Source of the DNA: an uncultured Clostridia bacterium
GTDB taxonomy: Bacteria > Bacillota > Clostridia > Christensenellales > Borkfalkiaceae
Reading direction: 5' to 3'
Length of the DNA stretch: 64,000 nt
NCBI GenBank assembly: GCA_944368775.1
Contig: CALVXB010000004.1
Location: 97,990-161,989, forward strand
The number at the start of each line of letters is the position of its first letter. Positions within the stretch are counted from its first letter, which is position 1. Below are positions 4,178 to 63,420 of this stretch, one piece after another. The notes below the pieces were generated by a model that saw nothing but the letters and a program-made list of their open reading frames with translations, had not been told where the DNA came from and did no database searches. Both the position numbers and the translations under genes were made by a program.

Positions 4178-6058
4178 ATGGACGTGACCAACAGATTTAC
4201 GACAGACGGATACGGCGCCGTGGTGGTGGGCGCGGGGCACGCGGGCTGCGAGGCGGCGCTCGCCCTCGCGCGGACGGGCATTGAGACGCTGCTGCTCTCT
4301 TTGAACCTCGACAGCATCGCCTTTATGGCGTGCAACCCCTCGGTGGGCGGCACGGCGAAGGGGCACCTCGTGCGCGAGATCGACGCGCTGGGCGGCGAGA
4401 TGGGCGTCAACGCCGACAAGACGGCGCTGCAAATGCGCATGCTCAACGCGGGCAAGGGCGCGGCGGTGCAGAGTTTGCGCTCGCAGGCGGACAAGCACGC
4501 CTACCACGCGCAGATGAAGCACACGCTGGAAAACACGCCGCACCTGACCATCCGCCAGAGCGAGGCGGCAGAAGTTTTGACCGAAAACGGGAAGGTGTGC
4601 GGCGTGCGCACCACCTACGGGGAGGTCATCTCCGCGCGGGCGGCAGTGCTGGCGACGGGCGTGTACCTCAACGGCGCGGTCATCGCGGGCGAATTCCGCC
4701 AGAGCTCCGGGCCAAACGGATTCGCCCCCGCGACCGAGCTGACCAAAAACCTGATCGACCTCGGCTTCACCGTGCGGCGGTTCAAGACGGGCACCCCCGC
4801 GCGCATCGACGGGCGCACCATCGACTATACCAAGTGCGAGATGCAGGAGGGCGACCCGACGGTGTATCCCTTCTCCTACCTCTCCGACGGGGTGCCGCAA
4901 AAGCAGACCCCCTGCTATTTGACGTACACGAACGAGCGCACGCACGCCGTCATCCGCACCAATCTGCACCGTTCCCCCCTGTTTTCGGGCATGATCAAGG
5001 GCACCGGCCCCCGCTACTGCCCCTCCATCGAGGACAAGGTGGTGCGATTTGCAGACAAGGAGCGGCACCAGATCTTCCTCGAACCGGAATGCGCGGGCTC
5101 GAACGAGGTGTACGTGCAGGGGATGAGCTCATCTCTCCCCCACGACGTGCAGCGGGAGATGTACCGCACGGTGCCCGGGCTGGAGCACGCGCGCATCATG
5201 CGCTACGCCTACGCCATCGAGTACGACTGCATCGACACCCTCGACGTGCAGCCCACCCTCGAAAGTAAGATCGTGGAAGGGCTGTACACGGCCGGGCAGA
5301 TCAACGGCACCAGCGGCTACGAGGAGGCGGCCGCGCAGGGGCTGGTGGCGGGGCTGAACGCGTCGCTCAAGCTGCGCGGCAGAGAACCGCTCGTTCTGCG
5401 GCGAGACGAGGCGTACATCGGCGTGCTCATCGACGACCTCGTGACCAAGGGCACCAACGAGCCCTACCGCATGATGACCTCGCGCGCGGAGTACCGCATC
5501 TGCCTGCGGCAGGACAACGCCGACCTGCGCCTGACCGAGCGCGGCTATGCGGCGGGGCTTGTGACCGAGGAGCGGTATGCCCGCTTTTTGCGCCGCAAGG
5601 AGGCGGTCGGGCGCGTCGCCGCCGCGCTGGAGGGGCGGGTGCCGCCCGCGCGCTGCGCGGCGTTTTTGCAGGCGCACGGCTTCCCCGCGCCGCAGGGGGG
5701 CGTTTCCTACGCGGATATGCTGCGCCGCGGCATCCCCGCCGCCGACATCGAGGCGGAGTTCGGCATCTTGCAGGGGGAGCGCGCGGCGGACAAGGAGACG
5801 GCGATCATCGACGTGCAGTACGCCGGCTACCTGCGCCGCAGCCTCGAACAGATCGAAAAGGCAAAGCGGCTGGAAGAAAAGCGGCTGCCGCCCGACATCG
5901 ACTACGAAAAGATCGGCGGGCTGCGGCTGGAGGCGCGGCAGAAACTTGCCAAGATCCGCCCCGAAAACCTCGGCCAGGCGGGGCGCATTTCGGGCGTCAA
6001 CCCCGCCGACATCGCCGTGTTGATGGTGTATATAAGCAATTCACAAAATTTCTTTTGA
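4178..6058 (+). CDS. mnmG: MnmG, tRNA uridine-34 carboxymethylaminomethyl modification enzyme
   Basis: The 626-residue flavoprotein works with MnmE to modify wobble U34 of several tRNAs. The FAD-binding motif [10 protein letters not shown] is at residues 14-23, with the conserved [31 protein letters not shown] and [14 protein letters not shown] blocks. AGAAGG precedes the ATG. The C-terminal sequence keeps the usual [14 protein letters not shown] and then ends in SNSQNFF. These last residues and the stop codon are encoded by a copy of the intergenic repeat family: TGA at 6056-6058 sits at the stem-loop junction of its first palindrome. No mnmE is adjacent. Confidence 0.97.
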
Positions 6059-6408
6059 GCTGACAAAAGAAATTTTCGTGATTTGAGGGAGACACCGCCG
6101 CACTCGTCGTCGCACGCCTTTGCTTGCCCGCCTTTTGCTTTTAGCAAAAGGCTCGGCGTGCTCGGCGGCTCCTCCTCTTCCCAAAAAGTTCTTCGATACT
6201 TTTTGGGAGCCCTTTTAGTACGTGGCGGCGTTTTCTCCCTCGCCGCGCGATATTTTAGGGGCACACCGTTAAAAAATCGCGCGGCTTCACCCTCTTCCCA
6301 AAAGCCTTTCGGCAAATTGAGGGAAAAAGCAAAAAGCGCGGTTTTTGCTTTTTCAATTATTTTAATTAAAATAAATGCGCGAGTCAAAATCGCAATTTTG
6401 ATGAGCGC
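6041..6408 (+). repeat. Modular hairpin repeat, copy 1
   Basis: It begins with palindrome AAATTTCTTTT-GAGCTGAC-AAAAGAAATTT (6046-6075). Next come an interrupted CCGCC/GGCGG stem containing the cgtcgtcgc/cttcccaaaaagt module, and the ggggcacacc hairpin (about 6245-6285). Then follow a cggcaaattgagg block, a gcaaaaagcgcggtttttgc hairpin and the gagtcaaaatc/gattttgat end. It overlaps the mnmG stop. Downstream to spoIIE (6409-6629) I see only a possible -10 hexamer. Confidence 0.85.
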
Positions 6409-6546
6409 ACCCTGTTTGCGCGATAGCGCTCAAAAAAGAATTTACTTTTGCAAGAACGAAAGTGCAATAACGGCGCTTTCGTCTTTTTATTCAATGTTCG
6501 CGAAATTTCTTCATTTTCCAAAAATTATTTTTGTGAGCTTTTCCGC

Positions 6547-6552
6547 TATAAT
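6547..6552 (+). promoter_or_regulatory. Possible -10 element upstream of spoIIE
   Basis: A TATAAT hexamer lies about 80 bp before the likely spoIIE start. I see no convincing -35 or Spo0A box at the right distance, so this is weak. Confidence 0.3.
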
Positions 6553-6629
6553 ATCTTAAATTCCGCGCGCGCGGGCGTGGTATGATGGACAAAAACATGA
6601 GGCGCGGCTTTGCCGCGCACGGAGCTGCT

Positions 6630-8942
6630 ATGATGCCAAAATTCCGCCTGCAATACGGGTACGAGACGGCGCTGTTTTACCTGGCGTTTTTCCTCGGGAT
6701 GCTGTTTTTGAACTTTACCATGGACCGCTTCGAGCCCTTTTCTCTCGCGCTGCTGGCGGCGGCGCTCGCCTGCGGGCTGCCCGTGCTGCCCATGACCGGC
6801 CTGTTTGTGCTGGCTGGCGGGCTGAGCCTGCTCGAGGGCGGGTACCCATTCCTCGTCGTCGCGGTACAGGCAGTGATCGTGGGCGGGGCCTTTTTCCTGT
6901 TCGAGCGGCTGGGGCGGCCCGTCAAGGGGGAGGCGGTGCTCGTGTACTTTGCCGCCGCACTCGCCTTCCTCTTTTTATACGGGCAATTCGTGTACGGAGA
7001 CTACATAAAGGCGGCGCTGGTGGCGCTGGTGCTGTTCGGGCTGTGCTTCGTGTTTTCGGGCGCGCTGCGCTGCCTGCTCTACCGCGCGGGGCGCTGCCGC
7101 CTCGCGCCCGAAGAGCTGGTGTTTTGCGGCGCGGCGGTGGCGGCGGCGGGCATCGGCATGTACAACTGCCTGGGCAGCTATGTGTACGAATCGATCGCGC
7201 TGGCGGCGCTGCTGATCAGCTGCGTGCTGCTGCGCAGCAGCAACGCGGTGCTGTGCTCGCTCGTGTTTTCGCTGCCCGTTTCGGTATGCGAGAGCGCGGC
7301 GGCGGCCGCGCCCCTTTTGACGGCGACGGCGGCGTACGTGCTGTACGCGGCGCTCGTTTTGGCGGCGCTGCGCGCCGGAAAGGTGCCCGCGGCGGCCGTA
7401 CTCTTCCTCGCGGACGTGTTCATGCGCTACTTTACCGACTACTTTGTGGGCGGCGGGGGCATTGCGGCTTTTTCAGATCCCACATTCTACTTACAGATGC
7501 TCGTGCCCTTTGTGCCCTGCCTGCTGTTTGCGCTGCTGCCAGAAAAGTGGCTGCAGGCGGTGTACGCGCGCTTCCGCAAGATCGGCGAGCCGCAGCTGAC
7601 CCGCGCGAGCATCAACCGCAACCGCGCGCGCGTGGGCGAGCGGCTGTTCGAGATCTCCGCCGCCTTCAAGGAGATCGAAAACGTGTTTTTGACTTTGGAC
7701 GCGGACACACAGCCGCAGGAGGACGCGCAGGACTTTTTGCTGCGCACCGTGCGCGAGGAGGTGTGCGCACAATGCGAAAAGCGCAGCGAGTGCGGGCGTG
7801 AGACGGAGGAAGGGCTCGCGCGCCTCATTGCCGTCGGCTGCGCGAAGGGAACGGTCAACCTCATCGACCTGCCCGCCGCGCTGACCGCGCAGTGCCGCAA
7901 CCCCTCTTCCGTGCTCTTTTCCTTGAACAAGCGGCTGGCAGACTGCCGCCGCCGCGCCGTCGGCGACGAAAACGCCGCGCAGGGGCGCAAAATGTTCGCC
8001 GAGCAGGCGCGCGGGCTGGCGGAGATGCTCAAGTCGCTCGCGCTGCAGCAGAGCGCGCCCGTCGGCATCCAGGCGGAGGCGGAGCGCAAGCTCAAGCTCG
8101 CCCTATCGCGGGCGGGGGTGCTGTGCGAGGAGGCGCTCATCTGCGGCAGCGAGCCGGACGTGTACCTGACGACCGCCTCCAACATATCGGGCGAGCGGCT
8201 GCGCGCCATCGCCGAGGGAGCGCTCGGCTTCCGCACGGCCATCGCCGCCAAGCACGCGCAGGCGGCGGGCAAGACGTGCTGGCTGCTGCGCCGCCTGCCC
8301 CGCTACGACGCCGCATTCGGCATCGCCAGCGCGACCAAGGCGGGGGAGGCCGCCTGCGGGGACACCTGCTCGGTCATCCGCATCGACGAACGCACCTTTT
8401 TGTGCGCCCTCGCCGACGGGATGGGCAGCGGCGAGTATGCGCGGCGCATCTCCGACTGCGCCCTCTCCCTGCTCGAGAGCTTTTACCGCGCGGGCATGGC
8501 GGGGGAGACGGTGCTGTCCACCGTCAACCGCCTGCTCTCCTTCAACCGCGAGGAGAGCTTCGCCTGCATGGACATGGCTACGGTCAACCTCGACAGCGGC
8601 CGCGCGGACATCGTGAAGATCGGCTCTCCCCTCACCTTTCTGCTGTCCGAGCAGAGCGTCGAGATCCTCGAGGGAGATTCGCTCCCCCTCGGCCTGCTCG
8701 ACGGGATACACCCCACCGCCCTCGAGCGCACCCTCGAAAACGGCAGCGTGCTGCTGTTCATCAGCGACGGCGTGACGGCGGCCTTCGGCTCGAGCACGGA
8801 CATCGCCGACTACCTGATGCTGCGCCGCACCGAAAACCCGCAGGCGCTGGCAGACGACCTGATCGCCGAGGCGCTCGCCCGCACGGGCGGCGCCCCGCCC
8901 GACGACATGACCGCCGTCGCCGTGCGGCTGTTCGAGCAATAA
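6630..8942 (+). CDS. spoIIE: SpoIIE, stage II sporulation protein E (PP2C phosphatase)
   Basis: The N-terminal half is a multi-span membrane region (about 10 segments, residues about 10-310). The C-terminal part is a PP2C-type phosphatase with ALADGMGSG and LFISDGVTAAF motifs. SpoIIE dephosphorylates SpoIIAA, which frees SpoIIAB and activates sigma-F in the forespore; it also acts at the polar septum. The start at 6630 is chosen for its GGAG five bases upstream. In-frame ATGs at 6582, 6585 and 6597 would add up to 16 residues but lack a clear ribosome-binding site. Length (770 residues) is close to that of the Bacillus protein. Assignment is firm; the exact start is not. Confidence 0.95.
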   Translation: MMPKFRLQYGYETALFYLAFFLGMLFLNFTMDRFEPFSLALLAAALACGLPVLPMTGLFVLAGGLSLLEGGYPFLVVAVQAVIVGGAFFLFERLGRPVKGEAVLVYFAAALAFLFLYGQFVYGDYIKAALVALVLFGLCFVFSGALRCLLYRAGRCRLAPEELVFCGAAVAAAGIGMYNCLGSYVYESIALAALLISCVLLRSSNAVLCSLVFSLPVSVCESAAAAAPLLTATAAYVLYAALVLAALRAGKVPAAAVLFLADVFMRYFTDYFVGGGGIAAFSDPTFYLQMLVPFVPCLLFALLPEKWLQAVYARFRKIGEPQLTRASINRNRARVGERLFEISAAFKEIENVFLTLDADTQPQEDAQDFLLRTVREEVCAQCEKRSECGRETEEGLARLIAVGCAKGTVNLIDLPAALTAQCRNPSSVLFSLNKRLADCRRRAVGDENAAQGRKMFAEQARGLAEMLKSLALQQSAPVGIQAEAERKLKLALSRAGVLCEEALICGSEPDVYLTTASNISGERLRAIAEGALGFRTAIAAKHAQAAGKTCWLLRRLPRYDAAFGIASATKAGEAACGDTCSVIRIDERTFLCALADGMGSGEYARRISDCALSLLESFYRAGMAGETVLSTVNRLLSFNREESFACMDMATVNLDSGRADIVKIGSPLTFLLSEQSVEILEGDSLPLGLLDGIHPTALERTLENGSVLLFISDGVTAAFGSSTDIADYLMLRRTENPQALADDLIAEALARTGGAPPDDMTAVAVRLFEQ

Positions 8943-9083
8943 GTTTTTTTGATTTTGAATTTTTCCGCCGGGGCGGCGCGCTTTGCGCGCCGCCCCCTCT
9001 CCTTTTGCTCCCTTTTTGCCCCGCCGCGCCTTGCGCGCGCCGCCCGCGCGCATACGGGGCGAAAAGATGCACAAACTTGCAGC

Positions 9084-10811
9084 GTGAACGACTTTGAAAA
9101 CGCGAAACGCGGCAGGGGCGGCTGCCATGCCGACCCGAACAGTAGCGAGCAGGGCGCAAACGCGCCTTCTTCCAAACAAAATAATTTTGGCGCGGACCTC
9201 GCCGAAAACGTGCGCGCGCTGAAAGAGCTGCTGCCCGCCGAGGACATCCTCGTGTACGAGTTTGCCGCGGGCGACGGCACCGCCTGCGCCGCCGTGTATG
9301 CGGACGGCATCACCGACAAGCAGCTGCTCGGCGAGCTCGCCGCGCGGCCGCTGGCCGAGGGGGATGCGCCCGAGACGCTTGAAGCGTGCCGCAAGAGGAT
9401 GCTATTCCCCGAGGTGAAGGAGGCGGAGGACGTCGCCGGCGCGGCGGAGGAAATTTTGGCGGGCAACCCCGCGCTGCTCATCGACGGCATGCGCGGGGCG
9501 CTGGTGCTGGGGACGAAGAAGGTATCCCTGCGCGCCGTGGCGGAGCCGCAGACGGCCATCGCCATCAAGGGCCCGCGCGAGGGGTTCATCGAGGACGTCA
9601 AGACCAACATGGGGCTCATTCGCCGCCGCCTCAAGACGCCCGCCCTGCGCTTTGTGACGCTGACGGTGGGCAGGTACAGCAAGACGAGCGTCGCGCTCGC
9701 CTACCTTAGCGGCGTTGCGAGCGAGGCGCGGGTCAAGGAGATCGAGGCGCGGCTCGCCGCGGCGGACATCGACGGCGTGCCCGACTCGTCGTACATCGCG
9801 CGCATTTTGGCGCGGCGGCCGCACTCGCTGTTCAAGCAGGCGGGCACGACGGAGAAGCCGGACATTTTGTGTGCGAAGATGCTGGAGGGGCGCATCGCCG
9901 TGCTCGCGGACGGCTCGCCCATCGCGCTGACGCTGCCCTATATGCTGGCGGAGGACTTCCAGAGCGCGCAAGACTACTTTGTATCCCCCTACCGCGCGAC
10001 GGTCAGCCGCGTTTTGCGGCTGCTGGCGGTGCTCGCCTCCCTGCTGCTGCCCGCGCTGTACGTGGCGGCGCAGCTGTTCCGCCTGCGGCTGATCCCCTTC
10101 GGGCTGCTGCTCATCGTGTCCGGCGGCATCCGCGCCATCCCCCTCTCGCCGGGGCTGGAGATGTTCTTTCTGCTCGCCGTACTCGAAGTGCTCGTCGAAG
10201 CGAGCGTGCGCATGCCCAAATACGTCGCGCTCGCACTCTCCGTCATCGGCGCGCTCGTCCTCGGCGATACCGCCGTCAAGGCGGGGCTGGTCTCTTCCCC
10301 CGCCATCATCATCGTCGCCATCGCGGGCATCTCGGCGTACACCGTGCCCGACCTGACGGGCACCCTCTCCCTCGTGCGCATCCTGTTTGTGGTGGCGGCG
10401 GGGAGCATCGGGCCGTACGGGGTGGTGCTGCTCGCCGCGCTGCTGCTGTGGTACCTTGTTTCGGCGGACAGCTACGGCGTGCCGCTGCTCGCCCCCTTTG
10501 CGCCGCTCGTCTCCCACGACCTGCGCGACGCGCTCATCAAGGCGGACCTCTCCTCCCTCGCCGAGCGGCCGCGCACGCTGCGCGGCAAAAACAGGCGGCG
10601 GCTGCGGCTGTGCGCGGGCGGCTCGCTCCCGCCGCGGCAGGGGGAACAGGGAGAAGGTTCTCCGCGGCGGCCAGCGGAAGAAGAAGGCGCGCCCACGCCG
10701 CAGAAAACTGCGGGGCGCAAAGAGGCGGGCGGCGAAAAGGGCGGCGCGGGGGCGGGGGAACCTTCTTCTCCCCAAACAGACAAAAAGAACGAGGAGGCGC
10801 GGGATGGATAA
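9084..10811 (+). CDS. gerKA: GerKA/GerAA-type spore germinant receptor A subunit
   Basis: The N-terminal hydrophilic region (about residues 30-240) and the following membrane region (about five segments) match the GerA family of receptor A subunits in the spore inner membrane. The GTG at 9084 is inferred because the family homology begins soon after (NVRALKELL); no strong ribosome-binding site is visible, and a TTG at 8949 would extend it. The C-terminus has a K/R/E/P-rich tail of about 75 residues unusual for the family. It overlaps gerKB by 8 bp. A forespore sigma-G promoter would be expected, but only a partial GCATA element is seen near 9049. Confidence 0.9.
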   Translation: MNDFENAKRGRGGCHADPNSSEQGANAPSSKQNNFGADLAENVRALKELLPAEDILVYEFAAGDGTACAAVYADGITDKQLLGELAARPLAEGDAPETLEACRKRMLFPEVKEAEDVAGAAEEILAGNPALLIDGMRGALVLGTKKVSLRAVAEPQTAIAIKGPREGFIEDVKTNMGLIRRRLKTPALRFVTLTVGRYSKTSVALAYLSGVASEARVKEIEARLAAADIDGVPDSSYIARILARRPHSLFKQAGTTEKPDILCAKMLEGRIAVLADGSPIALTLPYMLAEDFQSAQDYFVSPYRATVSRVLRLLAVLASLLLPALYVAAQLFRLRLIPFGLLLIVSGGIRAIPLSPGLEMFFLLAVLEVLVEASVRMPKYVALALSVIGALVLGDTAVKAGLVSSPAIIIVAIAGISAYTVPDLTGTLSLVRILFVVAAGSIGPYGVVLLAALLLWYLVSADSYGVPLLAPFAPLVSHDLRDALIKADLSSLAERPRTLRGKNRRRLRLCAGGSLPPRQGEQGEGSPRRPAEEEGAPTPQKTAGRKEAGGEKGGAGAGEPSSPQTDKKNEEARDG

Positions 10812-11971: not shown

Positions 11972-13276
11972 GTGCGCAAACTTTCTTCTAAACTCTTATT
12001 GCTGGCGGCGGGGGCGCTGCTGCTGTTGTTTTTGACAAACAACTTCGGGCTGATCGACATCCAAAAGACGGCCATCGTGACGGCGATCGGCATCGACGCG
12101 GGCGAGGGGGGCACCTTTGACGTGACCGCGCAGATCGCCATCCCCGACGCGGGCGGCGCCAACACGGCGAGCAACGTTGCGGTGCCCGCCGCCGAAACGG
12201 TGGGCGAGGCGATCGCCGAGCTCAACCGCAAGACGGGGTGGTTCCCCACCCTCGTACATTGCAGCCTCATTTTGCTGGGCGAGCGGGTGGCGGAGGAGGA
12301 CGTGTTCCGCGCCCTCGACTACTTTTTGCGCAGCGAGTATGTGGAGGACTCGTGCCTGGTGGCGCTGTGCGCGGACACCGCCGCCGCGGCGCTGGGCGCG
12401 GGCTCGCCCATCGGCGAGCTGGCCTCCGCCGCCATCGCCAAGGTGCTGTCCGCCGAGGCGCAAAAGACGGGGCTGGTGTCCGTGACCAACCTGCGCGACT
12501 TTGCCAAAGGATACTTTGCCGAGGGGCAGAGCGGCTTTTTGCCCACCCTGCGCGCCCAGCCGCGCGCACAAAGCGAGGGCGGCGCGGGCGGCTCATCCGG
12601 CAGCTCTTCGGGCGGTTCTTCCGAGGGCGGTTCGGGGGGCTCTTCGGGCGGTTCTTCTGAAGGCGGTTCGGGGGGCTCTTCGGGTGGTTCTTCCGAGGGC
12701 GGTTCGGGAGGCGGCGGCGGCAGCGGCGGGCAAAGTTCTGCCGGGGGCGGGCAAAAATCGGACGTGTTCGACGCCGCGGAGACGGCGCTCTTCTTCCGAG
12801 GGAGGCGCACGGCGGCGCTGAGCGCCGACGAGACGCTCGCCTACAACCTCGCCGTGTCCGGCACCGACATGGCCTTCGGCGACGTGACGGTGTTTGAGGA
12901 GGGCGCCGAGGTGCACTACCAGCTGAAGATGAACATCGGCAAAAAGAAGCGCCGCCTGCGGCTGGAGGGCGGGGTGCCCGTGCTGACCTTTACCATCCGC
13001 GCGCAGGCGCAGGCGGTGGACGCCGACCGCGCGGGCAGCCGCCTCGAGATCGCGCAGACGGCCATCGTACCCGACCATGTGCTGCGCGCCGCCGAGCAAA
13101 AGTTCGAGCGCGAGCTGCGCGCCGCCGCCGAAACGGCGCACGCGGGCGGCTGCGACCTGTTTTCGCTGCAACAGATGCTGCACCGCTTTTACCCAAAGCA
13201 GTTCGACGCGCTGCGCCCCACCCTGCTGCAGAGCGTGCGCATCGCCTGCGACATCCGCTTTGCGACCATGCGATAA
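11972..13276 (+). CDS. gerKC: GerKC-type spore germinant receptor C subunit without a lipobox
   Basis: The GTG at 11972 has GGGAGGTGA five bases upstream. The protein (434 residues) has the family's N-terminal core (GLIDIQKTAIVTAIGID) and C-terminal domain. C subunits are usually lipoproteins with Cys just before the WD(R) motif. Here the N-terminal hydrophobic segment has no Cys, so it may be anchored by a transmembrane helix. A Gly/Ser/Glu linker of about 65 residues, partly three 36-bp tandem units at 12611-12718, separates the two domains. Last gene of the operon; a bidirectional terminator follows at 13522-13548. Confidence 0.88.
   Translation: MRKLSSKLLLLAAGALLLLFLTNNFGLIDIQKTAIVTAIGIDAGEGGTFDVTAQIAIPDAGGANTASNVAVPAAETVGEAIAELNRKTGWFPTLVHCSLILLGERVAEEDVFRALDYFLRSEYVEDSCLVALCADTAAAALGAGSPIGELASAAIAKVLSAEAQKTGLVSVTNLRDFAKGYFAEGQSGFLPTLRAQPRAQSEGGAGGSSGSSSGGSSEGGSGGSSGGSSEGGSGGSSGGSSEGGSGGGGGSGGQSSAGGGQKSDVFDAAETALFFRGRRTAALSADETLAYNLAVSGTDMAFGDVTVFEEGAEVHYQLKMNIGKKKRRLRLEGGVPVLTFTIRAQAQAVDADRAGSRLEIAQTAIVPDHVLRAAEQKFERELRAAAETAHAGGCDLFSLQQMLHRFYPKQFDALRPTLLQSVRIACDIRFATMR
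12611..12718. repeat. Three 36-bp tandem units in gerKC
   Basis: Units start at 12611, 12647 and 12683 and encode GGSSEGGSGGSS-type 12-residue blocks; the third ends in GGGG. Confidence 0.9.
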
Positions 13277-24107: not shown

Positions 24108-24335
24108 GCTCGGAGATTTCTCGGCAGGCTGCTGCCTGCGAAATCTTCCGATTTGAAGACAACCCCGCGGGCACGCGCGGAGCGCTGGCCGCGGGGTTTT
24201 CCTCGCCACCGCGCGTTAGGGGCACACCTTTGATAGCGCGCGGCGGCTTCACCTTTCCCCCATAAGCCTAACGGCAAATGCAGTGCGCTGGCGCAGAAGC
24301 GTGGTTCTGCTTGCGCGAGTGATTTAATAAAAATT
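24108..24335 (+). repeat. Modular hairpin repeat, copy 2
   Basis: Starts with the variant palindrome GGAGATTTCTCGGCAGGC / GCCTGCGAAATCTTCC, then the ACCCCGCGG...CCGCGGGGTTTTCC hairpin. It continues with the cgcgcgttaggggcacacc / gatagcgcgcg hairpin, the agcctaacggcaaatgcagt block and the gcttgcgcgagtgatttaataaaa end. It fills the gap between the lipoprotein promoter and degV. Confidence 0.85.
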
Positions 24336-38647: not shown

Positions 38648-38915
38648 GCTCGCGAAATTTGTTTCGAGCTGACGAAACAAATTTCTGCGATTTTAGAGAC
38701 AACCCGCTGTTCACCGCTTTTACAAGCGGCTCGGCAGCGGGTTTTCTCTCTTTGCACGATAAATAAGGGCACACCTTAAAGAAATCGTGCAAATTCACTC
38801 TTTCCTCAAAAGCCTAACGGCAAATACAGTGCGCTGGCGCAAAGGCGCGACTTTGCTTGCGCATTTGTTTTAAAAAAAAGTTAGAGGGCTGCGCCCATGC
38901 GCTGTAACAAGCAAA
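38648..38915 (+). repeat. Modular hairpin repeat, copy 3
   Basis: Palindrome GAAATTTGTTTC-GAGCTGAC-GAAACAAATTTC (38654-38685), then CCGCTG-CCGCTT/AAGCGG-CAGCGG nested hairpin with GTTTTCTCTC. It continues with gcacgat/atcgtgc around aagggcacacctt, the agcctaacggcaaatacagt block, a tgcgc end and gggctgcgcccatgcgctg. It is a full-length reference copy. Confidence 0.9.
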
Positions 38916-42859: not shown

Positions 42860-43387
42860 ATCGAAAAAGCGGAAATCTCACTTTTCGCTTTTGATCCTAA
42901 AAAATAAATGCGCTCGAAAAAGAGGCGCAGCCGCGCTAAAAATAAATATAAAATCACTCGAAAAAGGCAAAACCGCGCTTTTGCCTTTTTCCCTTTACAG
43001 CGCATGGGCGCTGCACGGATGGGGTGAATGCGGCGCGCTCGTCGTCGCTCGCCTTTGCTTGCCAGCCTTTTGCTTTTAACAAAAGGCTCGGCTTGCGCGG
43101 CGGCTCCTCCTCTTCCCAAAAATCTCGCGACGCTCCGCACCGCTGCGATTTTCGGGAACCCTATTTTTTTTAATTCTTGCGCGAGTCAAAATCACACTTT
43201 TGATGAGCGCACTCAATTTGCCGTGAGGCTTACGAGGAAAGAGTGAATTTGCGCGACTTCTTAATGGCGTGCCCCTAAAATATCGCGCGGCGAGGAAAAC
43301 CCCGCGGATAGCGCTTGCGCGTGCCCGCGGGGTTGTCTTTCAAATCGCAGAAATTTGTTTTAACAGCTTAAAACAAATTTCGCGAGC
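42860..43387 (-). repeat. Modular hairpin repeat, copy 4 (largest)
   Basis: Reading on the minus strand from the rpmA end: palindrome GAAATTTGTTTTAA-GCTG-TTAAAACAAATTTC (43350-43381). Next come the CCCCGCGG/CCGCGGGG hairpin, the ggggcacgcc hairpin, the ctcacggcaaatt block and the caaaagtgtgattttg hairpin. Then follow cccgaaaatcgcagcg, the cttcccaaaaa and cgtcgtcg modules, gcagcgcccatgcgctgtaa and the gcaaaaccgcgcttttgcc hairpin. The palindrome ends 7 bp from the rpmA stop. Confidence 0.88.
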
Positions 43388-48797: not shown

Positions 48798-48800
48798 TCC

Positions 48801-48947
48801 TCGCGAAATTTGTTTTAAGCTGTTAAAACAAATTTCTGCGATTTGAGAGACAACCCGCCGTTCGCCGCTTATGCAAGCGGCTCGGCAGCGGGTTTTCTCT
48901 ATGATCGGAAGATTTCGTAGCCGTCAGCACGGCGAGATTTTCGCGAG
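48801..48947. repeat. Modular hairpin repeat, copy 5 (compact, palindromes at both ends)
   Basis: Left palindrome GAAATTTGTTTTAA-GCTG-TTAAAACAAATTTC (48805-48836), then the CCGCCG-CCGCTT/AAGCGG-CAGCGG hairpin with GTTTTCTCT, then an inverted variant palindrome (ggaagatttcgtagc ... gcgagattttcgcg, 48906-48945). It fills the gap from the ybaK promoter to the glmS stop. Confidence 0.88.
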
Positions 48948-53763: not shown

Positions 53764-54098
53764 AACGACCGAAAAAGGCAAAAACCGCACCTTCTCTTTT
53801 ATAAAACAAATGAAAAAGCAATACCGCGCTTTTTGCTTTTTCCCTTTACAGCGCATGGGCGCTGCACGGGGAAAGGTGAAGCCGCCGCGCTCGTCGTCGC
53901 TCGCCGCCGCCAAGCTGCCGCGCGGGCAGCCAACGGCTGCCCGCGGGCTAACGGCGGCGAGCGACGACGAAAAGGCGTGCCCTTAAAAATGCCGCAAAGA
54001 GAGAAAACCCGCTGCCGAGCAGCAATAGCTGTGAGCAGCGGGTTGTCTCTAAAATCGGAAGATTTCGCAGGCGTCAGCTCGCCGAGAAATCTCCGAGC
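53764..54098 (-). repeat. Modular hairpin repeat, copy 6
   Basis: Minus strand from 54098: variant palindrome GGAGATTTCTCGGC-GAGCTGAC-GCCTGCGAAATCTTCC, then the CCGCTG-CAGC/GCTG-CAGCGG hairpin and the aagggcacgcc hairpin. The interior holds a long cgtcgtcgctcgccgccg / cggcggcgagcgacgacg palindrome. It ends with gcagcgcccatgcgctgtaa and a gcaaaaagcgcggtattgc hairpin. Confidence 0.88.
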
Positions 54099-55790: not shown

Positions 55791-55809
55791 CGGGCTTCCC
55801 TCCGCCTGT

Positions 55810-55971: not shown

Positions 55972-55977
55972 TATCGT

Positions 55978-56511: not shown

Positions 56512-56856
56512 ATGAACAAAGTGAAGATCACCGTGCTGCGGCGGACGCTGCAGGAAGATCTCGCCAAAGAGTACGGCGCGGAGGGGCTCAAGCGCTGCCC
56601 CATGCTGCGCGAGGGGCAGGTGTTTTACGCCGACTACGCCAAGCCGGAGGGGCTGTGCGACGAGGCGTGGAAGGCCATCTACCAATATGTATTCGCCCTG
56701 GCGCACGGCGCGGGGCGGGATCCCTTTTACTTTGCCGATTGGATCCGCGTGCCGGGGGTGGCGATCGTGTCCTGCAACGACGGGCTGCGGCCGGTCATCT
56801 TCAAGTTGGAGGCGACGGATATCCCCGCCGCCATCGACTACACGCCCGTGGAGTGA
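56512..56856 (+). CDS. TIGR04076-family small protein
   Basis: 114 residues. The conserved pattern VKITVLRRTLQEDLAKEY, GQVFYADYAKPEGLCDEAW and SCNDGLRPVIFKLEA is that of TIGR04076, a small cytoplasmic family of unknown function common in anaerobes. GGAGG lies about 6 nt before the ATG at 56512. The CDF transporter gene begins 5 bp after its stop. Confidence 0.85.
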   Translation: MNKVKITVLRRTLQEDLAKEYGAEGLKRCPMLREGQVFYADYAKPEGLCDEAWKAIYQYVFALAHGAGRDPFYFADWIRVPGVAIVSCNDGLRPVIFKLEATDIPAAIDYTPVE

Positions 56857-56861
56857 GCGCC

Positions 56862-58001: not shown

Positions 58002-58030
58002 AAATAATGCCCAACTGCACCCTGACATAC

Positions 58031-58066
58031 AAGAGGCCTTCCCTTTGCGGAAAGGCCTCTTTTTTT
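58031..58066 (+). terminator. Terminator of the CDF gene
   Basis: agaggccttccc / ggaaaggcctct hairpin followed by seven T. It lies at the 3' end of the convergent 44-residue gene. Confidence 0.88.
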
Positions 58067-58068
58067 GC

Positions 58069-58203
58069 TTATTCGATGCGGATCGTCCGCACGGTGAAAT
58101 CGGTAAAATGCAATGTGATGGTGTTTCCCTCTGCCACACAATAGGCGAGCACCTCTTCCCGTAAATAAACCAAAAGCAATGCTGTCAGCTCTTCTGCCGT
58201 CAT
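58069..58203 (-). CDS. 44-residue acidic protein divergent from an XRE regulator
   Basis: The frame MTAEELTALLLVYLREEVLA... to ...TVRTIRIE has an ATG at 58203 with GAGG 8-9 nt upstream. A near-consensus promoter (58251-58279) stands 50 bp before it. The sequence predicts a helix followed by two or three strands. It is convergent with the CDF gene and divergent from the XRE gene, which probably controls it. I do not recognise the family. Confidence 0.6.
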   Translation of the reverse strand: MTAEELTALLLVYLREEVLAYCVAEGNTITLHFTDFTVRTIRIE

Positions 58204-58250
58204 CTTCTTTTCCTCACAAATCTATTCTCATGTTTCAGAAGTCCATAATT

Positions 58251-58279
58251 AATATACCATAGTATTTTTACTTTGTCAA
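58251..58279 (-). promoter_or_regulatory. Promoter of the 44-residue gene
   Basis: Minus strand: TTGACA (58274-58279), 17-nt spacer, TATATT (58251-58256). Direct repeats ATAGTATT at 58259-58266 and 58293-58300 flank the region and may be operators. Confidence 0.75.
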
Positions 58280-58294
58280 TTTATATTTTATAAT
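58267..58294 (+). promoter_or_regulatory. Promoter of the XRE regulator gene, overlapping
   Basis: TATAAT (58289-58294) with a poor -35, TTTACT, at 16-nt spacing. It overlaps the divergent promoter, so one bound protein could control both. Confidence 0.45.
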
Positions 58295-58324
58295 AGTATT
58301 GAATTTTTGGACAGGGAGCGCGCG

Positions 58325-58633
58325 ATGCTGCATGAACGGATCAAGGCGCTGCGCACCGCCCTCGGCATGACGCAGGTCGATCTGGCCGCGGCGCTGGGCG
58401 TGAGCAAGCAATGCGTCTCGAATTGGGAAAACGATAATATTCAGCCTTCCGTCGAGATGCTGGCGCGCATCGCGCGGTTCTTTCGCGTCAGTTGTGACTA
58501 TTTGCTCGGTTTGGACAGCGCGGCTCTGCGCGCAGACGGATTGAGCGAAGCGCAGCTTGCGCATATCCGGCTGCTGATCGACGACCTCGCCGCCGCAAAC
58601 GCCGCGGCGCGCGGCACAAAGCAGAAAACGTAA
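58325..58633 (+). CDS. XRE-family transcriptional regulator
   Basis: 102 residues. Residues about 1-62 form a HTH_3 domain (MTQVDLAAALGVSKQCVSNWENDNIQPSVEML), followed by DYLLGLD and a C-terminal helix. It probably binds the shared intergenic region and controls the divergent 44-residue gene, possibly itself. GGGAG precedes the ATG at 58325; an in-frame TTG at 58307 is less likely. Confidence 0.92.
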   Translation: MLHERIKALRTALGMTQVDLAAALGVSKQCVSNWENDNIQPSVEMLARIARFFRVSCDYLLGLDSAALRADGLSEAQLAHIRLLIDDLAAANAAARGTKQKT

Positions 58634-58653
58634 CGCCGCAAGGCATCCCCCTC

Positions 58654-58684
58654 AACGCGCGGGCACATCCCGCGCGTTTTTTAT
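58654..58684 (+). terminator. Terminator of the XRE regulator gene
   Basis: ACGCGCGGG-cacat-CCCGCGCGT followed by TTTTTATT. Confidence 0.88.
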
Positions 58685-59112
58685 TAAATCACTCGCGCAA
58701 GGGAAATCACACTTTTCCGCTGCGATTTTCGGGAACCTTTTTTCATTAAAATACTCGCGCAAGCAGAACCACGCTTCTGCGCCAGCGCACTGTATTTGCC
58801 GTTAGGCTTTTGCAGAAAGAGTGAATTTGCGGCATATAAACAGGGCTCCCAAAAAGTAACTCGCCGCGTTGCGGCGAGAGCTAAGCCCGCCGAACTTTTT
58901 GGGAAGAGGAGGAGCCGCCGAGCACGCCGCGCGGGCAGCCAATGGATGCCCGCGGGCAAGCAAAGGCGAGCGACGACGAAGGCGTGCCCTTATTTATTTA
59001 TCGTGCAAAGAGAGAAAACCCGCTGCCGAGCCGCTTGTATAAGCGGTGAACAGCGGGTTGTCTTTCAAATCGCAGAAATTTGTTTTGACCGCTCAAAACA
59101 AATTTCGCGAGC
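58682..59112 (-). repeat. Modular hairpin repeat, copy 7
   Basis: Minus strand from 59112: palindrome GAAATTTGTTTTGA-GCGG-TCAAAACAAATTTC (59075-59106), then the CCGCTG-CCGCTT/AAGCGG-CAGCGG hairpin. Next is the gcacgataaa...aagggcacgcc arm interrupted by the cgtcgtcgctcgcc and cttcccaaaaagt modules. It ends with aaattcactctttc, the gcctaacggcaaatacagt block and the agaagcgtggttctgc hairpin, followed by a duplicated gcgcgagt end. The tatD promoter starts 7 bp beyond its palindrome. Confidence 0.88.
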
Positions 59113-59118
59113 AATTTG

Positions 59119-59147
59119 TTGACGAATCGTAACAAAAAGGGTACAAT
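59119..59147 (+). promoter_or_regulatory. Promoter of the tatD-rSAM-rsmA operon
   Basis: TTGACG (59119-59124), 17-nt spacer, TACAAT (59142-59147). It lies between repeat copies 7 and 8, so copy 8 is transcribed as leader. Confidence 0.7.
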
Positions 59148-59169
59148 AGAGTTAAAATACAAGGGCGAC

Positions 59170-59540
59170 TGTCACCTCTTCTTCTTTTAATAATTTTTAT
59201 TAAAATTACTCGCGCGAGGGAAATCGCAATTTTCCGCTGCGCAACTCAATTTGCGCGTAAGCGCTTAAGAGGGAAACGTGAAGCCGCCGCGCGCTATCAA
59301 AGGCGTGCCCCTACCAAGGGCTCCCGAAAATCGCAGCGAAGCGAGATTTTTGGGAAAAGGAGGAGCCGCCGAGCACGCCATGCCTTTTGCAAAAAGCAAA
59401 AGGCAGGCAAGCGAAGGCGAGCGACGACGCGCGCGGCGGCGAGGAAAACCCCGCGGCCGGCGCCCCGCGCGCGCCCGCGGGGTTGTCATCAAATCGGAAG
59501 ATTTCGCAGGCGTCAGCTCGCCGAGAAATCTCCGAGCGAG
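59170..59540 (-). repeat. Modular hairpin repeat, copy 8 (in the tatD leader)
   Basis: Minus strand from 59540: palindrome GGAGATTTCTCGGC-GAGCTGAC-GCCTGCGAAATCTTCC (59497-59533), then the CCCCGCGG/CCGCGGGG hairpin. An inserted cgtcgctcgcc...cttttcccaaaaatc...cccgaaaatcgc module precedes the ggggcacgcc/gatagcgcgcg hairpin and the gcgcgagtaattttaataaa end. Its last bases gcgag lead into gtatttATG of tatD, giving GAGG as ribosome-binding site. Confidence 0.88.
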
Positions 59541-59546
59541 GTATTT

Positions 59547-60332
59547 ATGTTTATAGACTCTCACGCACACCTCAACTACGAGGACAAATACAAGGATACG
59601 GGCGAACTGCTGGCGGACATCCGCGCGGCGGGCGTCGGCATGGTCGTCAACGTGGGCTGGAATTACGAATCCTCCGCGCTGGCGGCGCGGCAGGCGCTAT
59701 CGCACCGCGGGCTGTTTTTTGCCGCGGGGCTGCACCCCTCCAACCTCGCCGACTTTGCCGAGGGCGACTTTGCGCGCATGGCGGGCCTGCTTTCCGCGCC
59801 CAAGGGGGTCGCCGTCGGGGAGATCGGGCTGGACTACCACTACGAGGGCACGGACGAGGGGGCGCAGCGGCGCGCCTTTGCCGCGCAGCTCGAGCTTGCA
59901 GACGCGCTCGGCCTGCCCGTGATCATTCACAGCCGCGACGCGGCGGCGGACACGCTGCGCATTTTGCGCGACAACCGCGAAAAGCTGCACAACGGCGGGG
60001 TGATGCACTGCTTTTCGGGCAGCCCCGAGACGGCGAAGGAGTACTTAAAGCTGGGACTGTACATCTCCTTTGCGGGGCCGGTGACATTTAAGAACGCGCG
60101 TCGGCTGGACGAGGTCGCCAAGATGGTGCCCGCCGACCGCATCCTTGCCGAAACGGACTCGCCCTACCTCGCGCCCGAACCGCTGCGCGGCACGCTGAAC
60201 ACGCCCGCGAACGTGGTCAAGGTGTATGAAAAGCTCGCGCTTTTGCGCGGCGAGCCGCTCGAGGCGCTGTGCGAACAGATCGAACAAAACGCGCGCACGC
60301 TGTTTACCAAGCTGCGCGGGGAGACGCTGTAA
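59547..60332 (+). CDS. tatD: TatD-family metal-dependent hydrolase
   Basis: 261 residues, TIM barrel. Metal ligands are visible: DSHAHLNYE near the N-terminus, GEIGLDYHY, VIIHSRDA and ETDSPYLAPEP. TatD proteins are 3'-5' exonucleases or D-aminoacyl-tRNA deacylase-like hydrolases. First gene of an operon with a TatD-linked radical SAM protein (3 bp) and rsmA. Confidence 0.94.
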   Translation: MFIDSHAHLNYEDKYKDTGELLADIRAAGVGMVVNVGWNYESSALAARQALSHRGLFFAAGLHPSNLADFAEGDFARMAGLLSAPKGVAVGEIGLDYHYEGTDEGAQRRAFAAQLELADALGLPVIIHSRDAAADTLRILRDNREKLHNGGVMHCFSGSPETAKEYLKLGLYISFAGPVTFKNARRLDEVAKMVPADRILAETDSPYLAPEPLRGTLNTPANVVKVYEKLALLRGEPLEALCEQIEQNARTLFTKLRGETL

Positions 60333-60335
60333 ATA

Positions 60336-60938
60336 ATGGAACGCTACGAAAATTTCACCTACGAATTGGACAAAAACCTGTACATCAACCTGACCAGCCG
60401 CTGCACCAACGACTGCACCTTTTGCGTGCGCAACGAAAAGGCAGACTACTTCGGCCACAAGCTGTGGCTGGCGCGCGAGCCGCGCGCGGAGGAAGTGATC
60501 GCGCGGCTGCCCGCGGACATCGGCAAATACCGCGAGTACGTATTTTGCGGCTTCGGCGAGCCGACCATCCGCTTAGACGCGCTGCTCGCCGTGGCGAAGG
60601 AGATCAAGGCGCGCGGCGGCGTGACGCGCATCAACACCAACGGCCAGGCCAACCTCATCCACAAGCGGGACGTGACGGCCGAGCTCGCCGGCGCGATCGA
60701 CAAGATCAACGTCAGCCTCAACGAGGCGACGGCGCAGGCGTACGTCGCCCTCTGCCGCCCCGCCTTCGGCGAAGCCGCCTTTACGGGGCTGCAAGAATTT
60801 GCCAAAAAGTGCGCCGAGCGGGGCATCGACACCTGGTTTTCGGTCGTCGATATCATCGGGGAGGAGAAGATCGCCGCCTGCCGCGAGATCGCCGCCCGCG
60901 CGGGGGTCTCATTAAGAGTTCGCGCATATATAGAGTAA
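60336..60938 (+). CDS. TatD-associated radical SAM protein
   Basis: 200 residues. The radical SAM cluster motif is CTNDCTFC (Cys-x3-Cys-x2-Cys, about residues 23-30). GFGEPTIRLD and NTNGQANLIHKR are further family blocks. This family is linked to tatD in many Clostridia and its reaction is unknown. The stop is directly followed by a lone repeat palindrome (copy 9). Confidence 0.92.
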   Translation: MERYENFTYELDKNLYINLTSRCTNDCTFCVRNEKADYFGHKLWLAREPRAEEVIARLPADIGKYREYVFCGFGEPTIRLDALLAVAKEIKARGGVTRINTNGQANLIHKRDVTAELAGAIDKINVSLNEATAQAYVALCRPAFGEAAFTGLQEFAKKCAERGIDTWFSVVDIIGEEKIAACREIAARAGVSLRVRAYIE

Positions 60939-60940
60939 TG

Positions 60941-60980
60941 TTCACAAAATTTCTTTTGAGCTGACAAAAGAAATTTCGCG
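60941..60980 (+). repeat. Modular hairpin repeat, copy 9 (first palindrome only)
   Basis: AAATTTCTTTT-GAGCTGAC-AAAAGAAATTT (60947-60976), almost identical to the start of copy 1, fills the gap between the radical SAM stop and rsmA. Its end cgcgagg supplies part of the rsmA ribosome-binding site. Confidence 0.88.
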
Positions 60981-60993
60981 AGGAAGTTTTTCC

Positions 60994-61830
60994 ATGGATA
61001 TTCGCACCATACTGCAAAAACACGGATTTTCCTTCAAAAAACAGTTCGGGCAGAATTTTATCACGGACACGAACCTGCTCGACTCCATTGCAGAGCTTGC
61101 GGGCATCGACGAAAACGCGACGGTGCTCGAGATCGGCTGCGGGGCGGGCACGCTGACGCGCGCGCTGGCGAAGCGGGCGGGGCGGGTCATCGCCTACGAG
61201 ATCGACGCCAAGCTGCAGCCCGTTCTCGCCGAGACGCTGGCGGGGCTTGACAACGTGGAGGTCGTGTTCCGCGACTTTGCGCGCGAGGACATGGCAAAGC
61301 TGGAAGAGGCGCTGCCCCCCTACGCCGTCGTCGCCAATCTGCCCTACTACATCACGACGCCGCTGGTGACGAAGTTCCTCGACGACGCAAAAAAGGTGCT
61401 GTCGCTGACCGTGATGGTGCAGGACGACGTTGCCCGCCGCTTTTGCGCGCAGCCGGGCACGGCAGACTACGGCGCGATCACCGCGGCCATCGCGCGGCGG
61501 GCGGACGCGAAGATCGTAAAACTCGTGCCGCGGCGGATGTTTTACCCCGTGCCCAACGTGGACAGCGCGGTGGTGCAGCTCAACTTTGTCGAGGGGCGCA
61601 TCCCCGTGCGCGACGCCAAACTGTACCGCGCGACCGTGCGCGCGGCCTTCCTCTCCCGCCGCAAGACGCTGGAAAACAACCTGATGCAGGCCTTTCAGCT
61701 GCCGCGCGAGCGGGCGCAGGCGGTGCTGCAAGCGGCGGGCGTGCCCGAAAAGGCGCGCGGCGAGACGCTTTCGCCCGAGCAGCTGGCAAAACTTGCCGAC
61801 CTGCTGTGCGACGTTCAACAGACAAAATAG
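60994..61830 (+). CDS. rsmA: 16S rRNA dimethyladenosine transferase
   Basis: 278 residues, starting with FKKQFGQNFITD. The SAM motif is VLEIGCGAGTLTRAL, and the catalytic NLPYYITTPLV motif follows. RsmA dimethylates A1518 and A1519 of 16S rRNA. tatD-(rnmV)-rsmA is a usual neighbourhood; here the radical SAM gene replaces rnmV. A terminator follows at 61835. Confidence 0.97.
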   Translation: MDIRTILQKHGFSFKKQFGQNFITDTNLLDSIAELAGIDENATVLEIGCGAGTLTRALAKRAGRVIAYEIDAKLQPVLAETLAGLDNVEVVFRDFAREDMAKLEEALPPYAVVANLPYYITTPLVTKFLDDAKKVLSLTVMVQDDVARRFCAQPGTADYGAITAAIARRADAKIVKLVPRRMFYPVPNVDSAVVQLNFVEGRIPVRDAKLYRATVRAAFLSRRKTLENNLMQAFQLPRERAQAVLQAAGVPEKARGETLSPEQLAKLADLLCDVQQTK

Positions 61831-61834
61831 CCGA

Positions 61835-61858
61835 AGCGGCCGACTTGGCCGCTTTTTT
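61835..61858 (+). terminator. Terminator of the tatD-rsmA operon
   Basis: AGCGGCC-gactt-GGCCGCT followed by TTTTT. Confidence 0.9.
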
Positions 61859-61973
61859 GTTTGCGCGGCGCGCCGCTTATTTTTTTTGAACTTGTCCGCG
61901 CGGGGGCGGTTTTTTCTTCCTTCCCTAAAAAACATATACGCGCAAGCGGCGGCATAAGATAGAGCGGACTGCT

Positions 61974-62675
61974 ATGAACGTACTGTTTTTGCTGCTGTTT
62001 GTGCCGGCGGCGGCGCTGACCGCGCTGCGCGCGCCCGACGAATTTTTGCCCGCGCTGCTCGCGGGGGCGGGCAAGGCGGTGACGCTGTGCCTGACGCTCG
62101 CCGCCGTGTACGCGGTGTGGATGGGCTTTATGCAGGTGGCGCAGGACGCGGGCGCGGTGCGGCTGCTCTCGCGCGGGATGCGGCCGCTGACCCGCCGCCT
62201 GTTCAAAACCGATGACCCCGCCGCGCTGGACGCCGCCGCCCTGTGCATGACCGCCAACTTTTTGGGGATGGGCAGCGCCGCCACCCCCGCGGGCCTGAAC
62301 GCGATGCGCCTTTTGGGGCGCGCCGAGCGGCCGGGCTACGCGCGCGCCATGCTGTTTGCCGTCAACTGCGCGGGGGTGCAGCTGCTGCCGACGACGGCGC
62401 TCGCCGTGCGCATGCAGGCGGGCTCTGCCGCCCCGTACGACGTGGTGCTGCCCGCGCTGCTCGCCGAGTGCGCGGCGCTGCTCGTCGGCGCGGCGCTCGT
62501 GTGGCTATTTTATCTGCCGCCCTTGGAAGCGCTCGCACGCAACGCCACGCGAAAGCGCGGGAACGAACGCGCCCAAGGGCCCGCCCGCGGCGAAAAAGGC
62601 AGGCAAAGCGGCGCGCGCCGGCTTTTGCGCAAGAACGGGCGGGGCGCGAAGCGGAGAACAAAACGATGCAGGTAG
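61974..62675 (+). CDS. spmA: SpmA spore maturation protein
   Basis: 233 residues with five or so membrane helices and the nucleoside-recognition (Gate) domain (ANFLGMGSAATPAGLNAM). SpmA and SpmB are needed for normal spore core dehydration. A basic Lys/Arg-rich tail of about 45 residues is added at the C-terminus. The ribosome-binding site is weak; no clear sigma-G promoter is seen. It overlaps spmB by 10 bp. Confidence 0.92.
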   Translation: MNVLFLLLFVPAAALTALRAPDEFLPALLAGAGKAVTLCLTLAAVYAVWMGFMQVAQDAGAVRLLSRGMRPLTRRLFKTDDPAALDAAALCMTANFLGMGSAATPAGLNAMRLLGRAERPGYARAMLFAVNCAGVQLLPTTALAVRMQAGSAAPYDVVLPALLAECAALLVGAALVWLFYLPPLEALARNATRKRGNERAQGPARGEKGRQSGARRLLRKNGRGAKRRTKRCR

Positions 62676-63172
62676 CGGCGCTGCTCGTTCCGCTGCTGTT
62701 TTTGGCGGTGTTTATTTTTGCGGCGGCGCGGCGGGTGAAGGTGTACGACAGCTTTGCGACGGGCGCGGCGGGGGCGCTGCCGCTGTTAAAAAATCTGTTC
62801 CCCTACATCGCCGCCGTGCTGGTGCTGACCGAACTGTTCGAGGCGAGCGGGCTTTCGGCCGCGCTGCAGCGGGCGCTCTCCCCCGCCTTTGCGGCGCTGG
62901 GCGTGCCGCCCGAGATCGCCCCGCTGGTGCTGGTCAAGCCTTTTTCTGGCAGCGGGGCGACGGCGCTGCTCGCCGATTTGTGCGCGCGGTTCGGGGCGGA
63001 CTCGTACATCGCCCGCTGCGCCTGCGCGGTGTACGCCGCGGGCGACACGGTGTTTTACCTATCCGCCGTGTGGTACGCGGGCGCGCCCCGCCCGCTGCGG
63101 CCCGTCGCCGCCTCGTGCGCGGCCAACCTCATCGCCGCTGTCCTCGCCTGTCTACTCTGCCAAGTGCTGTAG
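62666..63172 (+). CDS. spmB: SpmB spore maturation protein
   Basis: 168 residues, a Gate-domain membrane protein. KPFSGSGATALLADLCARFG and DTVFYLSAVWYAG are typical of SpmB. It pairs with SpmA; the two reading frames overlap. Repeat copy 10 begins directly after its stop and supplies a possible terminator hairpin. Confidence 0.93.
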   Translation: MQVAALLVPLLFLAVFIFAAARRVKVYDSFATGAAGALPLLKNLFPYIAAVLVLTELFEASGLSAALQRALSPAFAALGVPPEIAPLVLVKPFSGSGATALLADLCARFGADSYIARCACAVYAAGDTVFYLSAVWYAGAPRPLRPVAASCAANLIAAVLACLLCQVL

Positions 63173-63420
63173 GGCTCGCGAAATTTGTTTCGAGCTGACG
63201 AAACAAATTTCTGCGATTTGAGAGACAACCCGCTGCTCGCAGCTATTGCTGCTCGGCAGCGGCGTTTTCTCTCTTTGCGCGACGATTAAGGGCACGCCAT
63301 TAAGAAGTCGCGCAAATTCACTCTTTCCGCAAAAGCGCTCACGCGCAAATTGGGGGCGCTGCATCAAAAGTGTGATTTTGACTTGCGCGAGTATTTTAAA
63401 AAATAGGGCTCTGCCCTCTG
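63173..63420 (+). repeat. Modular hairpin repeat, copy 10
   Basis: Palindrome GAAATTTGTTTC-GAGCTGAC-GAAACAAATTTC (63180-63211), CCGCTG-CAGC/GCTG-CAGCGG hairpin with GTTTTCTCTC, gcgcgac/gtcgcgc around aagggcacgcc, and an aaattcactctttccgcaaa block. It ends with the caaaagtgtgattttg hairpin and gcgcgagtatttt. Confidence 0.9.

Follow-up and report, generated by a model that had tools for sequence, protein, structure and literature searches.

ERIC/IRU elements are single imperfect palindromes of ~130 bp, located between genes in enterobacteria and their relatives. The BOX elements of Streptococcus pneumoniae are assembled from ordered modules, boxA-(boxB)n-boxC; as portrayed in part of the published account (PMC3049150), they are intergenic, multicopy and clustered, and have been inferred to move without a self-encoded enzyme. 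The REP/RAYT systems (GTAG- and CGTC-tagged repeats) are described in part of PMC3733652 as hairpins of DNA whose stems change in a complementary manner and whose loops vary, and which form head-to-head and tail-to-tail dimers. Here we describe a family of composite repeats in a stretch of 64 kb from an uncultured Clostridia bacterium (Candidatus Borkfalkia or a close relative), hereafter the window. The repeat unit is ~220 bases long and comprises five hairpins, H1 to H5. We assign a probability of about one half to the reading that the family represents non-autonomous mobile elements, with the prediction that recognition of the hairpins takes place on folded DNA and not on RNA.

Judged by how the family appears to work, a BOX-type composite repeat is its nearest kind. 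Both are ordered, intergenic composites of many copies with predicted stem-loops, mutual insertion and inferred mobility. The present family differs in having five hairpins, in the exchange of whole hairpin stems, in the docking of H1 at gene ends and in its hosts, the comparison being one of descriptions. The modules are ordered, and whole units recur, as does a second element (module 2); a variable number of an inner unit was not seen as such. With REPs the family has in common that it is non-autonomous and consists of DNA hairpins in which the stems change in a complementary manner, the loops vary and dimers occur; the REP is, however, a palindrome of 20-40 bp. H1 carries no GTAG/CGTC foot, and in the incomplete drafts searched Y1 (HUH) transposases do not co-occur with the repeat. 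Miniature inverted-repeat transposable elements (MITEs) such as Correia elements and RUP are similarly short, non-coding, strongly paired, intergenic and numerous (in part PMC3049150). The family differs from these in that a terminal match, of six bases (CTCGCG ... CGCGAG), is confined to some copies, the 5′ feet differing in others, and in that no target-site duplication has been shown and no cognate insertion sequence found; one element (48800-48947) has an H1 at both ends, inverted. ERIC/IRU elements, intergenic palindromic repeats like the present ones, are set apart by description only.

Architecture of the family

The ten places listed in an earlier note on the window, which had proposed repeats sharing ordered blocks, all carry members of one family, and the block order given there was right. 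Thirty-six copies picked for diversity were used to derive a covariance model, R1, of 222 positions and 63 pairs. The window (C4:97990-161989) belongs to a draft genome, G000, of 1.78 Mb in 22 contigs (95.5% complete). Scoring 150 of 827 first-look candidates in this genome gave at least 95 R1 matches at 50 sites (E ≤ 0.01; matches up to 300 bases apart joined). Sixteen matches fall in the window and join into nine sites, equivalent to the ten places with those at 58.7k and 59.2k merged; several of the sixteen overlap one another or are weak fragments of a single composite. Partial or overlapping matches within composites are frequent, and the number of elements is uncertain to that extent.

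The five hairpins follow one another in fixed order, and each exists in alternative versions in which both arms change together. H1 is a palindrome with the loop AGCTGA, or a one- or two-base variant of it, in most copies and an AAGAGA-like loop in some; its feet read CTCGCG, CTCGGAG, TTCAC or similar, with one extra bulged base in the 3′ foot. H2 is a GC hairpin, its foot formed by GAGAG/CTCTC-like bases, and a T-rich run comes after it. The stem of H3 encloses GGGCACRCC. H4, which is small and differs in sequence between copies (GCCTAACGGC, GCGCTTACGCGC, CAGCGCCCATGCGCTG and others), sits within a short outer stem, and H5 is a double stem with the loop GYGYGR or similar, followed by an AT-rich tail. 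Reading the sequences corrects the earlier note in some details: the CTAACGGCAAAT block proves to be a hairpin, H4, of which gcagcgcccatgcgctg is another version, and cgtcgtcgctcgcc and cttcccaaaaagt are both parts of module 2. Module 2 starts with CGTCGTCGC, yet is long and composite; it is inserted in the loop of H2 or H3, or appended. Of 116 tails examined, 20 are followed by a direct copy, 17 by an inverted partner (by a strict rule), 12 by module 2 and six by another H5. The remaining 61 were not recognised by the rule, and several of these look like an inverted H5 by eye. In the related genomes G010 and G034, units of 226 and 224 bases form tandem arrays.

Inversion of a loop is a mark of template switching between arms, as part of PMC8604942 has it. 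No inversion was found among the H1 loops of 150 aligned copies, and free template switching was rejected as the main force. A single instance was seen in the sister genome G018, where neighbouring H1 hairpins on contig C96 (6670 and 6818; locus L084) have exactly inverted loops, GTGCTGAC and GTCAGCAC.

Pairing in the stems

In the R1 source alignment, 89.4% of the cells are paired, compared with 73.2% after shuffling and at most 49.2% when the structure is slid along the alignment, and two-sided changes are observed in 50 of the 63 pairs. Covariation scores 0.440, against 0.167 after shuffling and no more than 0.138 after sliding. None of 500 shuffles reached any of the pairing measures and every slid version was lower, although the tested structure had been written from those same sequences, which biases the test in its favour. 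The compensatory change that keeps helices, one hallmark of structured RNA, is thus present.

The other hallmark, tolerance of G-U pairs on one strand, was not observed in the single test applied here to tell DNA from RNA. A larger alignment was made from the best 150 of 193 matches (141 distinct rows). Its 8405 cells hold 7639 Watson-Crick pairs, of which 1802 differ from the commonest pair type, 147 G-U (1.7%), 171 A-C (2.0%) and 448 others. Since an A-C on one strand is a G-U on the other, the stems favour neither strand overall. The control, analysed with MAFFT and RNAalifold, was RNase P, for which 33 of the 37 genomes searched gave a match. Over 29 loci it gave 212 G-U and 24 A-C in 2134 cells (9.9% and 1.1%); the 18 loci from the genus gave 198 and 7 in 1746 (11.3% and 0.4%). 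The 36 element copies, handled in the same manner, gave 39 G-U and 26 A-C in 1471 cells (2.7% and 1.8%), and a random 18 of them eight and five in 504. Pairing in the family is therefore strand-symmetric, as expected for DNA inverted repeats and against an RNA reading. Going by the sequences, we read this as selection, or a copying process, acting on folded DNA.

These data bear directly on the proposal, also made in the earlier note, of a structured RNA family, in which each copy would be co-transcribed with a neighbouring gene and the five-hairpin RNA would regulate or protect the transcript. The fixed order of the hairpins, the strong covariation and the constant loop orientation in the 150 aligned copies would suit such an RNA, as would the position of H1 directly after stops or before starts and the persistence of the architecture in another family of the order. 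The avoidance of G-U and the strand symmetry are unlike RNase P, and copies occur in either orientation relative to the neighbouring gene. No Rfam family matched the window at gathering score, and in six loci searched at E up to 1 the matches were weak and unrelated. We consider a structured RNA unlikely, and that part of the note is not supported. Neither of the two outcomes that the note had named as contrary to its repeat family occurred, as the covariance search found further copies and Rfam gave no match.

Docking at gene boundaries

The start of H1 is frequently placed against the end of a gene. H1 starts were taken from 164 distinct nhmmer hits, and gene boundaries were called by a simple open-frame rule; of 115 starts, five had too short a flank and 16 lay against another copy, leaving 94. 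Orthologous copies in G000 and G018 each entered the count, and the 94 are thus not independent observations. H1 follows a stop codon in 48 (median distance 4 nt; 34 within 6 nt) and precedes a start codon with a ribosome-site-like motif in 20 (median 13 nt; 18 at 8-20 nt). Among 3000 random positions in the same loci, 17.4% follow a stop, 6.5% precede a start and 76% do neither; 1.4% lie no more than 6 nt from a stop. At the opposite, tail end of the element, 20 of 100 follow a stop, three precede a start and 77 do neither, and two are within 6 nt of a stop. Docking also appears in G084, a member of another genus of the same family, in which H1 lies 3-11 nt from a boundary in all three copies. 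In two loci upstream of ksgA (L256 and L260) a copy is found near the 3′ end of the upstream gene, with an H1-like hairpin after the stop of that gene, flanked by AAATAA-like repeats.

The copies might instead be gene-boundary cassettes domesticated by the host, with H1-H2 kept as a protector of 3′ ends and as a terminator or insulator. The location of H1 against gene ends fits this, and several H2 hairpins between 48 and 64 kb of the window are terminator-like (for example at 54025, 59032 and 63246). Terminator-like sites are, however, common in this interval anyway (59, against a mean of 28.3 in shuffles), and 20 of the 94 copies face the start of a gene, not its end. Nearly half of the genome (~0.83 Mb) has no copy, and two members of the genus have no match. 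This account is a shade less probable to us than a structured RNA.

Search for the mover

Bulged hairpins and DNA-like pairing recall the ends of IS200/IS605 elements and REPs. A third possibility is accordingly that the repeats are REP-like derivatives of IS200/IS605, with a Y1 transposase reading the hairpins as single-stranded DNA. Y1 matches were found in 27 of 61 genomes searched, that of the window included. They do not track the repeats: five and three Y1 matches, and no R1 match, were found in G002 and G005, and the repeat-rich G001, G009, G028, G032 and G035, together with G022 (19 R1 matches), have no Y1 match in their incomplete drafts. The sole R1 match beside 12 Y1 genes is at chance level (E 0.59). 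On these grounds, from 61 incomplete drafts and 12 neighbourhoods, and with the two Y1 genes of the window's own genome left unexamined, the Y1 transposase was rejected as the mover. We regard this derivation as improbable, and the earlier note's statement that the repeats are not REP is borne out. The most frequent protein clusters in the flanks of the copies, read by eye, are PlsX-, AsnS- and HisS-like, together with antisense frames, and thus housekeeping-like.

Distribution in the genome and among relatives

In G000 the matches are clumped, with 74 of 95 within 244 kb of stretches that were selected after the data were seen; they lie on contigs C4, C6, C14, C17, C18 and C21. A dnaA domain at window 3051-3548 (PF00308, E 4.2e-66) makes the window a likely origin-proximal region. 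Retention of the copies as cruciform binding sites that organise the chromosome around its replication origin would accord with this clumping, one of the dense stretches being that with dnaA, but is very improbable given that these stretches were picked post hoc, that the dnaA contig of G028 has copies only ~45-88 kb away and on one side, its densest contigs being elsewhere, and that the copies of G030 are scattered over many contigs. Clustering at the origin, which the genome of the window does show, was likewise rejected as a general rule on G028 and G030.

R1 matches are present in 35 of the 37 genomes of the genus (G000-G036; Candidatus Borkfalkia or close), G002 and G005 having none; match counts in individual relatives are lower bounds throughout. 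A blastn search with one copy reached 31 of these 37 genomes and none of 24 from other families. In the same 24, R1 gave at least 23 matches in G041 and one marginal match in G038. G041 is from genus g6, in another family of the order, and all six g6 genomes examined have matches, from at least one to at least 36 each. One of five g27 genomes has at least four, and G084 at least three. A g6 copy that was read shares the surroundings of H3 and the H5 loop (AAAAGTGTGATTTT) with the family and differs in H1. The KsgA protein encoded in the window is 80% identical to that of Ca. B. faecigallinarum and 96% identical to that of record CASEIS010000010.1; this places the window close to Candidatus Borkfalkia and is the basis of the probable genus name. 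Phage and plasmid records queried with one copy gave no match; a 17-base motif found 11 contigs in IMG/VR, and R1 matched none of them at E up to 1. No published account of the repeat was found among the open-licence papers listed, including some of those that name Borkfalkia.

Copies in the window and turnover against a sister species

The window was compared site by site with the sister genome G018 (84% complete, 5% contaminated); the comparison left out the site at 6.0k and had no spanning match for those at 43k and 48.8k. The first copy (6040..6346, + strand; R1 E 7.5e-44) has all five hairpins, with module 2 in the loop of H2. The 5′ arm of its H1 supplies the last codons and the stop of the MnmG open frame (3914-6058; GIDA domains), and the repeat seems to have replaced the C-terminal codons of this gene. 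A partial inverted partner (6368..6537, −; E 2.2e-9) lies tail-to-tail with it across ATTTTAATTAAAAT. The module 2 of the first copy (6087..6187, +), CGTCGTCGC...CCTCCTCTTCCCAAAAA, was detected as a direct repeat (89%) with a related copy at 43022-43122. A full copy at 24109..24325 (+; E 1.1e-57) has no counterpart at the aligned place in G018, where the left flank is short. That at 38649..38871 (+) has the best genome-wide E-value of the window (2.3e-75), and a 99% identical copy occupies the orthologous place in G018. The full copy at 43170..43386 (−; E 7.8e-61) belongs to a composite with a weak, partial second copy at 42951..43158 (−) that has the gcagcgccc version of H4 and the weakest E-value in the window (2.0e-5). 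The element at 48800..48947 (+) is a short version, H1-H2 closed by the inverted H1, and is matched on both strands (48800-48916, +, E 5.7e-28; 48830-48947, −, E 4.3e-8).

The remaining copies display most of the turnover. The full copy at 53803..54097 (−; E 7.8e-37) has an extra CGTCGTCGCTCGCC palindrome, a cgtcgtcgctcgcc palindrome being all that it has of module 2. A copy is present here (53.7k) in both species, with the H1 core and other stems swapped as whole hairpins. At 58.0-58.3k a copy is found in G018 only. The full copy at 58676..59111 (−), located from nhmmer pieces and R1 matches (58748-58959 and 58892-59111, both −), has module 2 in the loop of H3 and an extra H5 hairpin at its tail; an additional R1 match covers 59069-59251 (+). 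It is followed by a full copy with module 2 (59203..59536, −; R1 matches 59203-59356 and 59288-59536), the H1 of which is just upstream of the start of tatD (TatD domain). Inverted repeats place the module 2 of this copy at 59332..59439 (−), and a further module 2 begins near 58892. Both copies are absent from G018 contigs that span the two flanks. A solo H1 palindrome (60942..60981, +; E 1.1e-6, model positions 2-42) precedes ksgA; in G018, again with both flanks spanned, it is gone and a short CTCGGAG remnant is left. The last full copy (63175..63397, +; E 3.3e-72, close to the best of the window) is also missing from a G018 contig that spans both flanks.

The neighbourhood of ksgA was followed further in 80 named loci, ten of which hold a total of 15 R1 matches; no exact empty site upstream of ksgA was found in the 26 loci viewed. 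Two contigs of G018, C17 (85% identity) and C101 (91-95%), both match window 25-32 kb, which suggests, from these alignments, that C17 is contamination in the draft. Two other repeats were noted in the window: a short tandem repeat of period 12 at 12584-12712 and, at the window end (63852-64000), a 51-base unit in three tandem copies.

Taken together, module exchange, nesting, arrays and empty sites in the sister species support the mosaic, non-autonomous elements suggested in the earlier note, as far as mosaicism is concerned; mobility, and with it an enzyme, we infer. Where the note had looked to precise empty sites as support, several sites in G018 are nearly empty, and no precise target duplication was found.

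Several observations weigh against mobile elements recognised as folded DNA. Target-site duplication is not established. Neither the G018 junctions nor the six viewed of 17 G000/G018 gap pairs show a consistent one, and at 58.7k A-tracts permit either a three-base duplication or no duplication. Loss in G018 could explain its empty sites just as gain in G000 could, the two not being distinguishable without a third genome, and the site at 60.94k looks like a deletion scar. As for an enzyme, besides the failure of Y1 transposases to track the family, no autonomous partner was noticed beside the copies, nor any transposase in the top clusters, read by eye, of 2240 open frames from ~1.5 kb flanks. 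Docking has exceptions: for 26 of the 94 H1 ends no gene boundary was called in the nearest 60 nt, and docking was not seen in the distant genus g6, with two of 23 scored distant copies within 6 nt of a stop, H1 of R1 fitting poorly in distant genomes. Nor is the pairing uniform. The reverse complement of the 36 copies, given its own predicted structure, has 124 G-U (7.9%) and nine A-C in 1575 cells, most of these G-U being, in our judgement, in six pairs outside the proposed stems. In the 150-row alignment one H1 pair holds 39 G-U cells, corresponding in the smaller alignment to nine copies of a CTCGGC/CTCGCC subtype of H1 with an internal loop, and two H4 pairs are rich in G-U, while A-C exceeds G-U in H2 (71 against 28) and in the inner part of H5 (32 against 3). 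The low G-U could also stem partly from the spread of a few master copies.

Conclusions

We favour non-autonomous mobile elements with DNA-level hairpins, and a possible mechanism can be outlined. An enzyme acting in trans would bind the loops and the bulge on a single strand, for example at a replication fork or on an extruded cruciform, and would cut and join the ends, thereby spreading the element. Insertions at gene boundaries would survive, and exchange of whole hairpins between copies would produce mosaics. The GC hairpin of H2 with its T-rich run may end transcripts of the abutting gene, a side effect that would favour retention. A bolder proposal, and a doubtful one, is that the family is a new class of mobile DNA: a five-hairpin element that moves as a folded single strand and is read, through its conserved loops and a bulge, by a non-Y1 enzyme, with polar insertion that sets H1 at the stop codon and with stems rewritten by hairpin exchange between copies under an unchanged fold.

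If the favoured reading is true, these repeats are an unusually elaborate hairpin-based family within a gut lineage, and their stems would allow conservation of structure at the DNA level to be told cleanly, in a natural setting, from conservation at the RNA level. The family would also caution that DNA hairpins can give rise to covariation, which by itself is often regarded as proving a structured RNA. Polar docking at stop codons points either to a targeting rule or to a function at transcript ends, both of which are testable.

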